Positions 27,731-31,503 of a stretch of DNA of 64,000 bases are shown here, in pieces (within the stretch, counting starts at the first letter, position 1; every line of letters begins with the position of its first letter). The stretch spans positions 1 through 64,000 of the forward strand of contig JAQWLN010000211.1 in the NCBI GenBank assembly GCA_029247265.1, written 5' to 3'. Position numbers and translations under genes: made by a program. Source of the stretch: Fuerstiella sp. (GTDB lineage Bacteria; Planctomycetota; Planctomycetia; Planctomycetales; Planctomycetaceae). The notes beneath the pieces were generated by a model. That model was given only the letters and a program-made list of their open reading frames with translations. It ran no database searches and was not told the origin of the DNA.

Positions 27731-29296
27731 TCAGGGACTGTCCGCAGCCACTTCATCCGCCGGTTGTTCAGAAATTCCTTTACGCTCGGCATCCGCTTTA
27801 TTCAACGCCTGCAGATACGCACGAGCTGCCGCTTCAATGATGTCCGTGCTGACACTCTTGCCCATGTAGTGACGACCATGAACATTGATCGTCACCCGAA
27901 CTTCTCCCTGTGCGTCTTTGCCTTCCGAGACGCTGCGAACATTGAATTCCTCAAGTCGCGCCGTCAATTCGATGATACGTTCCATGGCGCGAAACACTGC
28001 GTCAATCGGCCCGTCACCGGTGGCCGCGTCACACAGGACCGGCTGCTCTTCACACTTCAATTCCAGTGTCGCCGTTGGAATTGCTGACGACCCAGCTGAT
28101 GTATGAAAGCTGACCAGTTTCCAGCGTTCCGGTGCATCCGCCAGACGGTTGTCGATTAACGCAATGATGTCGGAATCGTAGACTTCCTTCTTTTTGTCAG
28201 CCAGGACGATGAAGTCATCAAATGCCTTCTGAACGGCGGCGTCATCCAGATCGAAGCCCAGCTCTTTTGTGCGGTCACGAAACGCATGGCGACCACTGTG
28301 CTTCCCCAGGACCAGATTCCGCCCCGAATACCCCACGTCTTCCGGACGCATGATTTCGTAGGTGGACCGCTCCTGCAACATTCCGTGCTGGTGAATGCCC
28401 GCTTCGTGAGCAAAGGCATTCTGCCCGACGATGGCCTTGTTCCTCTGCACTTTCATGCCGGTGATCGATGAGACCAGCTGACTTGTCGGAAACAGTCGCT
28501 CGGTGTTGATCTTCGTATGGACACCGTAGTAATCCGCACGCGTGCGAATGGCCATGACCAACTCCTCCAGAGCGGCATTGCCGGCCCGTTCACCCAGTCC
28601 GTTGATCGTGCACTCGACCTGACGAGCCCCCGCTTCGATCGCCGACAGGCTGTTCGCCACTGCCATGCCAAGGTCGTTGTGACAATGACTGCTGATAATC
28701 GATCGATCAATATTCGAAACGTGCTGCTTCAGATAGGAGATTACCTTGAAGTAGTGACTTGGAGTGGCATAGCCGACGGTGTCCGGAATGTTGACTGTTG
28801 TCGCACCAGCATCAATGGTCTTTTCAACCACTTCGCACAGGAAGTCCAGTTCGGTACGAGCTGCGTCTTCAGGCGAAAATTCGATGTCGTCACAGAATTC
28901 TTTCGCATCCCGAACCGAATGCACAGCGCGATCAATAATCTGCTGCTTGTCCATCTTCAGTTTGTGCTCGCGATGGATGGCGCTGGTGGCCAGAAAAACG
29001 TGAATACGCGGCTTTTCGGCACTCGCCAGCGCTTCTTTTGCCTTTTGAATATCGTCGTCCCGACTGCGAGCCAGCGCGCAGATCGTGGACCGGTCACTGA
29101 ACTGACTGGCAATCATCTGCACGGCTTCGAAGTCACCAGGAGAGGCGATCGGGAACCCAGCCTCGATCACGTCGACACCAAGTTCCACCAGCGCGTTGGC
29201 GACCTTCAGCTTTTCGTTGGTATTCATACTGCAGCCCGGAGACTGCTCGCCGTCGCGCAGTGTCGTGTCGAAAATGATGATCTGGTCGCCGGTCAT
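27731..29296 (-). CDS. leuA: 2-isopropylmalate synthase LeuA
   Basis: Catalyses acetyl-CoA + 2-ketoisovalerate to 2-isopropylmalate, the first committed step of leucine synthesis. The 521-residue product has the DRE-TIM barrel motifs DTTLRDGEQSPG (residues 9-20), HCHNDLGMAV (metal-binding histidines) and NGLGERAGNAALEE. A complete C-terminal LeuA regulatory domain runs from about residue 385 (ATLELKCEEQPVLCDAATGDGP ... TDIIEAAARAYLQALNKA), so leucine feedback inhibition is likely. The start at 29296 has AGGAG 9 bases upstream. A leader peptide and attenuator lie directly upstream at 29352-29471, so transcription is probably also leucine-controlled. No other leu gene is nearby. Confidence 0.96.
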   Translation of the reverse strand: MTGDQIIIFDTTLRDGEQSPGCSMNTNEKLKVANALVELGVDVIEAGFPIASPGDFEAVQMIASQFSDRSTICALARSRDDDIQKAKEALASAEKPRIHVFLATSAIHREHKLKMDKQQIIDRAVHSVRDAKEFCDDIEFSPEDAARTELDFLCEVVEKTIDAGATTVNIPDTVGYATPSHYFKVISYLKQHVSNIDRSIISSHCHNDLGMAVANSLSAIEAGARQVECTINGLGERAGNAALEELVMAIRTRADYYGVHTKINTERLFPTSQLVSSITGMKVQRNKAIVGQNAFAHEAGIHQHGMLQERSTYEIMRPEDVGYSGRNLVLGKHSGRHAFRDRTKELGFDLDDAAVQKAFDDFIVLADKKKEVYDSDIIALIDNRLADAPERWKLVSFHTSAGSSAIPTATLELKCEEQPVLCDAATGDGPIDAVFRAMERIIELTARLEEFNVRSVSEGKDAQGEVRVTINVHGRHYMGKSVSTDIIEAAARAYLQALNKADAERKGISEQPADEVAADSP

Positions 29297-29351
29297 GGGT
29301 CACTCCTGATTGATTCGAGGCTGCACCTGCGAGTTTACCCGACATGGGAAC

Positions 29352-29381
29352 AAAAAAACCCTGAGGCACTGCCTCAGGGTT
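29352..29381 (-). terminator. leuA attenuator terminator hairpin
   Basis: On the minus strand AACCCTGAGGC/GCCTCAGGGTT form a perfect 11-bp stem (29381-29371 with 29367-29357) with a 3-base loop. Seven T follow, beginning within the stem end (29358-29352). It lies 55 bases before the leuA ATG and 42 bases after the leader-peptide stop, where an attenuator terminator is expected. The plus-strand T tract is 9 bases from the stem and less suitable, so this works mainly towards leuA. Confidence 0.85.
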
Positions 29382-29410
29382 TGAAACTTCTTTTTTGATA
29401 AGCATGCGTA

Positions 29411-29420
29411 CCTGAGGCGG
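29411..29420 (-). promoter_or_regulatory. Antiterminator segment of the leuA attenuator
   Basis: CCGCCTCAGG on the minus strand begins 3 bases after the leader-peptide stop codon and repeats the GCCTCAGG of the terminator's 3' arm. It is complementary to CCTGAGGC in the terminator's 5' arm, over 8 consecutive pairs. It can therefore form the 2:3 antiterminator in competition with the 3:4 terminator. The leader coding segment also contains CTGAG, which could pair with its CTCAG as a 1:2 structure. Confidence 0.75.
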
Positions 29421-29423
29421 ACT

Positions 29424-29471
29424 TCACGTTGGAAGTAATAGAAGGCTCAGATTTAGTAGCAGGCTCCTCAT
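29424..29471 (-). CDS. Leucine leader peptide of leuA
   Basis: A 15-codon ORF, MRSLLLNLSLLLLPT, with 8 leucines, ending 127 bases before leuA on the same strand. The leucine codons are CTG, CTA, CTA, CTG, CTT, CTA, TTA and CTT. In the long genes of this window CTG dominates, so the CTA/TTA content is notable and would make translation sensitive to charged tRNA-Leu. The peptide is followed by an antiterminator segment and an intrinsic terminator, the order found in the enterobacterial leu operon leader. The Shine-Dalgarno is weak (GAGG about 14 bases upstream), so initiation may be nearly leaderless if the promoter below is right. The frame is also open upstream, but only this segment has the leucine run. 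Confidence 0.85.
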   Translation of the reverse strand: MRSLLLNLSLLLLPT

Positions 29472-29480
29472 GTGGTTCAG

Positions 29481-29507
29481 ATTATCCTCGGAAAACACGA
29501 TGGTCAA
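29481..29507 (-). promoter_or_regulatory. Candidate promoter of the leuA leader transcript
   Basis: TTGACC (29507-29502) and GATAAT (29486-29481) match sigma-70 -35 and -10 boxes at 5/6 each, with a 15-base spacer that is shorter than ideal. Transcription would begin within a few bases of the leader ATG at 29471. Planctomycete promoters are poorly defined, so this is tentative. Confidence 0.4.
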
Positions 29508-29951: not shown

Positions 29952-29986
29952 AAAGCCCGGTGTCACATATGACACCGGGCTTTTTT
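29952..29986 (+). terminator. Strong intrinsic terminator upstream of the tRNA array
   Basis: GCCCGGTGTCA/TGACACCGGGC form a perfect 11-bp stem (29955-29965 with 29970-29980) with loop CATA, extended by flanking A/T pairs and followed by six T (29981-29986). It is oriented for plus-strand transcripts. No annotated plus-strand gene precedes it, so it ends either a small RNA or the short leader ORF transcript. Confidence 0.8.
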
Positions 29987-30063: not shown

Positions 30064-30135
30064 GGGGTTGTGGTGTAACGGCAGCACAGCAGACTTTTAA
30101 TCTGCACGGTGAGGGTTCGAATCCCTCCGATCCCA
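30064..30135 (+). tRNA. tRNA-Lys(TTT)
   Basis: Acceptor GGGGTTG pairs with CGATCCC (two G-T pairs). Anticodon loop CTTTTAA sits on GCAGA/TCTGC; T-loop is TTCGAAT. Discriminator A; CCA not encoded. First member of the array. Confidence 0.88.
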
Positions 30136-30162
30136 TACCGCCCTGTGGCGAATGAACAACCG

Positions 30163-30234
30163 GCACTGGTCGTCCAGCGGCTAAGACTCCGCCTTCGTAA
30201 CGCGGCAACGTGGGTTCGATTCCCACCCGGTGCT
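30163..30234 (+). tRNA. tRNA-Thr(CGT)
   Basis: Acceptor GCACTGG pairs with CCGGTGC. Anticodon loop TTCGTAA on CCGCC/CGCGG has a C-C mismatch at the pair next to the loop. T-arm GTGGG-TTCGATT-CCCAC is perfect. Discriminator T; CCA not encoded. Confidence 0.82.
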
Positions 30235-30297
30235 CTCAGTGAGTCGCAGGCACAACCTGCAAACGCTCTTTGACAACCACTTTCGTTCAATTGCAAC

Positions 30298-30368
30298 GCG
30301 CCCATGATGTAGCGGTAGCCTACTGCCTTGCCATGGCGGAAGCGCGGGTTCAACTCCCGCTGGGCGCA
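30298..30368 (+). tRNA. tRNA-Gly(GCC)
   Basis: Acceptor GCGCCCA pairs perfectly with TGGGCGC. Anticodon loop TTGCCAT on CTGCC/GGCGG. T-arm GCGGG-TTCAACT-CCCGC. The D-arm (GTAG/CTAC) is cramped against the anticodon stem, so the D region is irregular. CCA not encoded. Confidence 0.8.
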
Positions 30369-30516
30369 AACCGGGCGTTTGATCGGGTGCCGTGGCACTC
30401 TGCCAGAACGCCGAACACGTGTACACCGCAGGATGTTTGGTTAGCCGCGTGTCAGCCGGGGAGTTAACCGAAACATGCTTTTTATTTGCGCTGACGATAC
30501 CGTCAGAACTCAATTT

Positions 30517-30591
30517 TGCGGTGGGGCCTGTGCTGGTACGGGCAGGCGGTTGTTAACCGTTCAGACGCAGTTTCGATTCCTGCCACCGCAG
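30517..30591 (+). tRNA. tRNA-Asn(GTT)
   Basis: Acceptor TGCGGTG pairs with CACCGCA. Anticodon loop TTGTTAA on GGCGG/CCGTT (two G-T pairs). T-loop TTTCGATT region with GCAG/CTGC. Discriminator G; CCA not encoded. Confidence 0.82.
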
Positions 30592-30723
30592 CTTGTGGCA
30601 CCGGCCACGGCGGATGCGAGCTAACGCCCCGCGAGAATGTTGTTCGTCGCTGAGAACAGACGGCAGAAATTGACGAGCACAAAATTAATTTCTCGCCCGA
30701 CAATTGTTATACGACGTTGAATG

Positions 30724-30814
30724 GGAAGGACAAGCCAATGGGCGATGGCAGCTGTTTCGAAAACAGTCGAGTGTGCGTGAGCATTCCCTGGGGGTTCGAA
30801 TCCCTCTCCTTCCG
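30724..30814 (+). tRNA. tRNA-Ser(CGA)
   Basis: Acceptor GGAAGGA pairs perfectly with TCCTTCC. Anticodon loop TTCGAAA on GCTGT/ACAGT. A long class II variable arm (about 20 bases) is present, as expected for Ser. T-loop TTCGAAT; discriminator G; CCA not encoded. Confidence 0.88.
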
Positions 30815-30834
30815 CTTTCAACAATTCAGAATTT

Positions 30835-30906
30835 GTGCCTCTGACCGAGCGGCAAAGGTGCCGGGCTTCCACCCCGGTCAGGCGGGTTCGACTCCCGCGA
30901 GGCACT
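30835..30906 (+). tRNA. tRNA-Gly(TCC)
   Basis: Acceptor GTGCCTC pairs perfectly with GAGGCAC. Anticodon loop CTTCCAC on CCGGG/CCCGG. T-arm GCGGG-TTCGACT-CCCGC. The next tRNA begins at the very next base, so 3' processing of this one and 5' processing of the next share a junction. Confidence 0.87.
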
Positions 30907-30981
30907 TGCGGGGTAGTTTCCGCTGGTAGAAATACGTGGCCTTGAACCACGTGTCCGCAGGTTCGATTCCTGCCCCCGCAG
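30907..30981 (+). tRNA. tRNA-Gln(TTG), with C at position 33
   Basis: Acceptor TGCGGGG pairs perfectly with CCCCGCA; T-arm GCAGG-TTCGATT-CCTGC. The anticodon stem CGTGG/CCACG encloses CCTTGAA, giving anticodon TTG but a C where U33 is nearly universal. Discriminator G; CCA not encoded. Confidence 0.8.
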
Positions 30982-30997
30982 TTTATTGTGATCATGC

Positions 30998-31070
30998 GGC
31001 ACCGTAGCCCAACGGAAGAGGCAGTCGTTTCAAAAGCGACACAGTGTGAGTTCGAATCTCGCCGGTGCCA
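30998..31070 (+). tRNA. tRNA with Leu anticodon CAA but short (class I) variable loop
   Basis: Acceptor GGCACCG pairs perfectly with CGGTGCC; D-arm GCC/GGC; anticodon loop TTCAAAA on GTCGT/GCGAC; variable loop only ACAGT; T-arm GTGAG-TTCGAAT-CTCGC; discriminator A. Bacterial tRNA-Leu normally has a long variable arm, so the charged amino acid is uncertain although anticodon and A73 fit leucine. Confidence 0.82.
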
Positions 31071-31179
31071 TCAGGCAGCGCCTGCATTCATGGCGTGGAT
31101 GGTTTGTTACGCATTGATCGTTGCACCGCCGAGATGGTTTATGTGATGCCATCCTTCTGGCACATACAAAACATGATAC

Positions 31180-31254
31180 GCCCTCGCAGAGCAGTCCGGA
31201 GTGCTCGCCATCCTGTCACGGTGGAGATCGTCGGTTCAAATCCGACCGGGGGTG
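31180..31254 (+). tRNA. tRNA-Asp(GTC)
   Basis: Acceptor GCCCTCG pairs with CGGGGGT (G-T at the end and one inside). D-arm GAGC/GCTC; anticodon loop CTGTCAC on CCATC/GGTGG; T-arm GTCGG-TTCAAAT-CCGAC. Discriminator G, as usual for Asp; CCA not encoded. Confidence 0.85.
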
Positions 31255-31335
31255 CTTGAATAACGGCTGATTCGACAGCTCAGACTTCGAACAAAGGAAA
31301 GACCGTTTCGGCGATATCCTGCGTCGTTGGAATTT

Positions 31336-31410
31336 GGCGTGGTAGCCCAACGGCAGAGGCATCCGGCTTAAGCCCGGAACAGTGTGGGTTCGAATCCCAC
31401 TCACGCTATC
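31336..31410 (+). tRNA. tRNA with Leu anticodon TAA but short (class I) variable loop
   Basis: Acceptor GGCGTGG pairs with TCACGCT (G-T at both ends); D-arm GCC/GGC; anticodon loop CTTAAGC on TCCGG/CCGGA; variable loop ACAGT; T-arm GTGGG-TTCGAAT-CCCAC; discriminator A. Closely related in body to the CAA and TAG members. Confidence 0.82.
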
Positions 31411-31423
31411 GATCATTGAACAT

Positions 31424-31498
31424 GGCACCGTAGCCCAATTTGGCAGAGGCGCTCGGCTTAGAACCGAGATGTTGGGAGTTCGAATCTCCCCGGTGCTA
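31424..31498 (+). tRNA. tRNA with Leu anticodon TAG but short (class I) variable loop
   Basis: Acceptor GGCACCG pairs with CGGTGCT; D-arm GCC/GGC; anticodon loop CTTAGAA on CTCGG/CCGAG; variable loop ATGTT; T-arm GGGAG-TTCGAAT-CTCCC; discriminator A. It would read CUA, a codon used three times in the leuA leader peptide. Confidence 0.82.
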
Positions 31499-31503
31499 CT
31501 TTC

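Follow-up and report, generated by a model that had tools for sequence, protein, structure and literature searches.

Leucine-rich leader and terminator upstream of leuA

The window (the whole 64,000-nucleotide stretch of Fuerstiella sp. DNA that was analysed) carries a leuA gene on its minus strand, whose product was identified by an equivalog match to TIGR00973 (729 bits; cut-off, 599). Read in the direction of transcription, the following features were found at this locus:

29502..29507, minus strand: predicted -35 box TTGACC (TTGACC-N17-TAATCT)
29479..29484, minus strand: predicted -10 box TAATCT, 7 nt before the leader ATG
29424..29471, minus strand: leader peptide ORF MRSLLLNLSLLLLPT, read directly; 15 codons, 8 Leu
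29446..29451, minus strand: candidate region 1 (TCTGAG, within the Leu codons), whose pairing with region 2 is possible
29411..29418, minus strand: region 2 GCCTCAGG (CCTCAGG segment), 5' strand of the antiterminator, recognised by the 2:3 duplex and the conserved helix
29371..29382, minus strand: region 3 AAACCCTGAGGC, 5' arm of the terminator, recognised by folds and conserved helices
29371..29378, minus strand: CCTGAGGC within region 3, doubling as the 3' strand of the antiterminator
29356..29367, minus strand: region 4 GCCTCAGGGTTT, 3' arm of the terminator (12-bp perfect stem, AGT loop)
29352..29358, minus strand: T run of the intrinsic terminator, seven T, read directly
27731..29296, minus strand: leuA, 2-isopropylmalate synthase, 521 aa, the regulated gene

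A preliminary description of this DNA had placed leuA at 29296, where its ATG was read, and had reported a 15-codon ORF with eight leucines as well as a short segment behind it, both of which were verified by direct reading, the segment being located at 29418-29411. The codons of the ORF are ATG AGG AGC CTG CTA CTA AAT CTG AGC CTT CTA TTA CTT CCA ACG TGA, with Leu encoded by CTA three times, CTG and CTT twice each and TTA once, in agreement with the CTA and TTA counts given earlier. Region 2 begins 6 nt past the leader stop codon. The perfect terminator stem and seven T described previously are both present; however, the stem of the hairpin (AAACCCTGAGGC-AGT-GCCTCAGGGTTT, 29382-29356) comprises 12 bp and not 11, its outer pairs overlapping the T run. 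An AGGAG motif (29303-29307) lies ahead of the leuA ATG, and leuA is followed by mazG, with no leuBCD behind it.

No other sORF on either strand of the window combines 7 or more Leu residues with a Leu content of 40% or higher, and the leader is one of three places in the window with a perfect-stem terminator. None of 60 dinucleotide shuffles of the 400-nt region upstream of leuA contained a Leu run as strong, and the leader fold was beaten by just 1 of 200 shuffles (z -2.8). The genes adjoining the leader on its upstream side encode tRNAs and run divergently on the plus strand; the terminator is therefore not owned by an upstream gene of the same strand. This cluster contains 11 tRNA genes (30064-31499), including those for tRNA-Leu with anticodons CAA, TAA and TAG. 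A second perfect-stem hairpin (29952-29983), which has T-rich flanks on both strands and resembles a bidirectional terminator, separates the tRNA cluster from the leuA promoter.

Conservation of the leader in related genomes

We located leuA in 58 genomes of the same class and read the upstream DNA for 55 of them. Using a residue test, which asks for each residue if any sORF is richer in it than shuffled sequences, a significant Leu-run sORF was detected before leuA in 46 of the 55 genomes (the next residue was Asn, with 11), and a terminator was present downstream of a leader-like ORF at 46 of the 55 loci. Outside the Leu run, the leader peptides vary across genera (for example, MSSLLLNLSLLLLPK, MISLRLNLNLLLLLS, MQYLNLLSLLLPGLLLCGGA, MNQNLLLLQLLLITPGC, and MPCISLLPLLLLTGLRP). 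The leader of Schlesneria leuA (MTFNTFLLLGLLTR) is accompanied by a terminator of the same type, and reading of the G018 locus gave the order leader, terminator and leuA.

A covariance model built from 24 leuA leaders was used to search the whole genomes of 120 family members. It returned 104 matches at E <=4.5e-4, of which 93 are located before leuA, 6 before cimA and 1 before a DAHP synthase gene, while the remaining 4 lie at contig ends with the next gene out of view; a detectable leader was absent in a few genomes.

Some leaders deviate from this pattern. At six loci of family f3, they have fewer Leu codons and the hairpin near the leuA start is mostly devoid of a clean T run; competing helices are not clear in these leaders, which are possibly a translational or otherwise different variant, or decayed. 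In genus g16, a conserved leader lies far from leuA, at approximately 890 nt in G278:C283 and 450 nt in G022:C27, as if DNA had intervened.

Competing helices

The 5' arm of the terminator had been proposed to be shared with an antiterminator, and both helices are kept in an alignment of 24 diverged leaders, so that the Leu-run ORF and the competing hairpins, for which the preliminary description had suggested a search in relatives, were both recovered. In this alignment, the terminator helix (3:4) is 97.5% paired and the antiterminator helix (2:3) is 82.6% paired, the latter value being 22-63% when the partner strand was slid by 1-3 columns. Five antiterminator pairs vary on both sides, only a moderate excess given that 80 of 500 shuffles reach that number, and the covariation score of the antiterminator was reached by 8 of 500 shuffles. 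The 2:3 duplex of the window has an energy of -17.1 kcal/mol versus -8.0 kcal/mol in shuffles (p 0.01). When this duplex was compared with shuffled spacers at 46 loci, the combined p was 5e-19, which is overstated since related sequences are not independent; individually, 24 of the 46 loci were at p <=0.05 and 22 above it. Protector pairing (1:2) is weak for the window leader (p 0.57), with p <=0.05 in 9 of 44 leaders and a pooled p of ~1e-6 over the 44.

The window leader was also folded with a ribosome masked at different positions. A ribosome placed over the Leu codons, before region 4 has been made, allows an 8-bp antiterminator to form (-16.7 to -19.7 kcal/mol), whereas one placed on the stop codon hides region 2, so that the antiterminator is lost and the terminator alone is left. 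Together with the duplex energies and the aligned helices, these folds indicate that antiterminator and terminator are mutually exclusive and that the antiterminator would be freed by a stalled ribosome and masked by a completing one. The naked leader, with no ribosome, folds directly into the terminator, and therefore the whole switch would hinge on putative coupled translation.

Codon usage of the leaders

Among leader Leu codons, CTA accounts for 20%, CTT for 26% and TTA/TTG for 9%, compared with 0.2%, 7% and 18%, respectively, in leuA genes (leader versus gene for CTA, p 4e-35). The earlier suggestion that the leader may respond mainly to minor leucyl-tRNAs is supported by this bias, which also fits theoretical and experimental work that ranks CUA highest and UUA/UUG lowest in sensitivity among the Leu control codons in E. 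coli (PMC1183508). For the Salmonella leu leader, a work cited in that paper is described there as showing that a CUA-to-CUG change reduces sensitivity. The tRNA-Leu that reads CTA (anticodon TAG) is encoded in the adjoining tRNA cluster. The leaders of Planctomycetota may offer an independent test, in another phylum, of CUA as the best Leu control codon.

Predicted promoter and leaderless start

A sigma70-like motif (TTGANN-N16-18-TANNNT), a looser pattern that was scored against shuffles, was found upstream of 35 of 44 leaders, no more than 110 nt away, versus 0.4 expected. A transcription start below the terminator, which the preliminary description had named as contrary to its reading, is therefore unlikely. 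A generic promoter scan missed the predicted promoter of the leader in the window because it matches the consensus at only 8 of 12 positions overall and at 3 of 6 in the -10 box. The gap between the -10 box and the leader ATG is 6-7 nt in all nine genomes comprising the genus of the window and its nearest neighbour G012, 6-9 nt in G028, G020 and G011, and 20-69 nt in most other leaders. Transcription is predicted to start at ~29471-29473, at the leader ATG. Because the usual spacing from the -10 box puts the start at the ATG, the leader peptide is probably leaderless in the genus of the window. A leaderless attenuator transcript is already known from Sinorhizobium meliloti, in which the trpL transcript likewise begins at the ATG of the leader ORF (PMC7298713); that system differs in having Trp codons, in preceding trpE(G) and in belonging to another phylum, and its 5' end is experimental whereas the one described here is predicted from the promoter.

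Leaders of cimA and possible leaders of DAHP synthase genes

Citramalate synthase, encoded by cimA, begins an isoleucine pathway. The genome from which the window derives contains this paralogue of leuA (TIGR00977, 663 bits). The loci considered here are:

G000:C250, 12991-14556, minus strand: cimA with Ile-run leader and terminator (L003 / L204)
G013:C19:11509-12522: DAHP synthase locus (L255 / L260; further loci, L261-L284)

In this genome, cimA is preceded by an ORF rich in Ile, a segment of the GCCTGAGG type and a terminator whose stem is CCCTCAGG, the counterpart of which at leuA is CCCTGAGG; in the genus of the window, the cimA leader peptide has the form VIIGIQIISICDVIVS. By the residue test, Ile was significant at 22 of 30 cimA loci across the family and Leu at none of them, and a terminator was present at 27 of the 30. 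Four of the six cimA matches obtained with the leuA-leader model were read, and all four carry Ile-run leaders. The Ile-run leader with its terminator (seen also at L205-L233) is conserved in the genus and in much of the family. We regard the cimA leader as a probable isoleucine attenuator. Although LeuA and CimA are related enzymes, their leaders contain runs of Leu and Ile, respectively, showing that the sensed amino acid follows the product.

Following the covariance match to a DAHP synthase gene, 24 upstream regions of such genes (NF006421 and TIGR01361) were tested. A significant Phe/Tyr/Trp-rich sORF, mostly with a terminator, was found at 11 of the 24 (such as KYWFGFWF, CGGYFYFWW, and DFYFWFSF), compared with 2 of 14 trpE and hisG control loci for the same residue group. 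These results are suggestive, but not settled, with respect to a possible DAHP synthase attenuator sensing all three aromatic amino acids. No amino acid run was detected upstream of trpE and hisG in the genus of the window or upstream of the leuC-like and ilvB-like genes of the same genome, and no leader was found for its second LeuA-like protein (418 aa).

Proposed mechanism and alternative explanations

We consider it very probable that the leuA leader is a classical ribosome-mediated transcription attenuator that senses charged leucyl-tRNA. Transcription would begin at or just before the leader ATG, so that the leader peptide would probably be read from a leaderless transcript. A shortage of charged Leu-tRNA would stall the leading ribosome on the Leu codons, and region 2 (GCCTCAGG) would remain available for pairing with region 3 (CCTGAGGC); this pairing would block the terminator and allow RNA polymerase to continue into leuA. 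With plentiful leucine, the ribosome would get to the stop codon just ahead of region 2 and cover that region, and regions 3 and 4 would then make the terminator.

Three other explanations were weighed, all of them highly improbable in our opinion. The ORF might code for a small membrane peptide, hydrophobic and with a separate function, the terminator merely ending its transcript. The peptide is indeed Leu-rich and hydrophobic, and some leader peptides act in trans, such as peTrpL (PMC7298713); however, the peptide is unconserved across genera outside the Leu runs, its Leu codons are skewed to rare CTA, the segment behind the ORF shows complementarity to the terminator arm, and the cimA paralogue has Ile in place of Leu, so that only a very small chance is left to this explanation.

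Even less credit is given to the possibility that the leader boosts leuA translation by reinitiation, a role suggested for short leader genes of several phyla, Planctomycetes among them (PMC4833913). A translated sORF does precede the gene, and planctomycete leader genes peak at ~10 bp from the start codon (PMC4833913), but the leader stop codon is 127 nt away from the leuA start with a strong terminator in between, and attenuation requires a distance of at least 40 bp according to the same paper. The leuA leader is distinct from the short-distance reinitiation leaders.

A non-stalling RNA switch (T-box, LEU-element pseudoknot or leucine riboswitch) governing the same terminator is just as improbable as reinitiation, even though an actinobacterial leuA leader with Leu codons behaved non-classically (PMC1262725): an Rfam covariance search of the leader with E up to 10 listed no leader or T-box family and gave only chance matches, the fold shows no pairing between the Leu codons and the leuA SD, and what the leaders have in common is codons and competing helices and not a fixed aptamer-like fold. 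The actinobacterial LEU element resembles the leader described here in that a Leu-run leader peptide precedes leuA. However, it forms a pseudoknot in which the Leu codons pair with the SD of leuA, and it has no evident terminator (PMC1262725), whereas the planctomycete leader has a terminator and shows no pairing of Leu codons with the SD in the minimum-energy fold through the leuA start.

In its proposed mechanism, the leader resembles enterobacterial leuL (Salmonella and E. coli), which likewise has Leu control codons including rare CUA and an intrinsic terminator, lies upstream of leuA and uses the 5' arm of the terminator for its antiterminator. The leader in the window differs in having 15 codons, in being probably leaderless in its genus, in the lack of leuBCD and in sharing no sequence-level family with leuL. 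The likeness to the enterobacterial leu leader, which had been noted for this locus earlier, lies in the mechanism; the leader matches no Rfam leader family, and its 1:2 pairing is weak in the window. Outside Proteobacteria, a leucine-rich attenuator peptide of Staphylococcus aureus similarly controls branched-chain amino acid genes, differing in that the organism is a firmicute and that CodY acts as a second regulator (PMC5794164).

Probable attenuation in Planctomycetota

The preliminary description knew of no such leader in Planctomycetota, and the open literature searched yielded no account from this phylum of leader peptides attenuating leuA, cimA or DAHP synthase genes, which does not prove priority. 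The mechanism is known, whereas the phylum as well as the cimA and DAHP synthase targets appear to be undescribed in that literature. We think it fairly likely that Planctomycetota possess undescribed, phylum-wide ribosome-mediated attenuators, in part with leaderless leader peptides, on the initial enzymes of amino acid pathways (Leu for leuA, Ile for cimA, and Phe/Tyr/Trp together for DAHP synthase). Attenuation requires ribosomes close behind RNA polymerase. If such attenuators indeed exist throughout the phylum, planctomycete ribosomes must follow RNA polymerase closely and translate RNA that is still being made, which would bear on the disputed nucleus-like compartment and could be used to probe whether planctomycete DNA is walled off from translation. 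The separation of DNA and translation in these organisms is contested, with papers for and against it (PMC5287468, PMC5394234).

For a long time, classical attenuation was documented chiefly in Proteobacteria and Actinobacteria, and a survey from 2010 was aware of no demonstration elsewhere before the firmicute case that it reported itself (PMC2965389). A deeply conserved set of Leu, Ile and probably aromatic attenuators in Planctomycetota would broaden the known range of this regulation and may provide native sensors of leucine and isoleucine in a phylum whose regulation is little known. The system gains interest from its depth across the phylum, from the corresponding Ile and aromatic leaders, from the probable lack of a 5' leader ahead of some leader ORFs and from its bearing on coupled transcription-translation.

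In other classes of Planctomycetota, a leader was found in several families and none in others (e.g., f44), and no clear leader was detected at the leuA loci of the anammox bacteria Brocadia and Loosdrechtia. Beyond the phylum, Verrucomicrobia UBA6053 carries a Leu-run sORF (MIRSGLLRRLLLLLLLEG) 132 nt upstream of leuA, and attenuation of this kind may extend to other PVC phyla.
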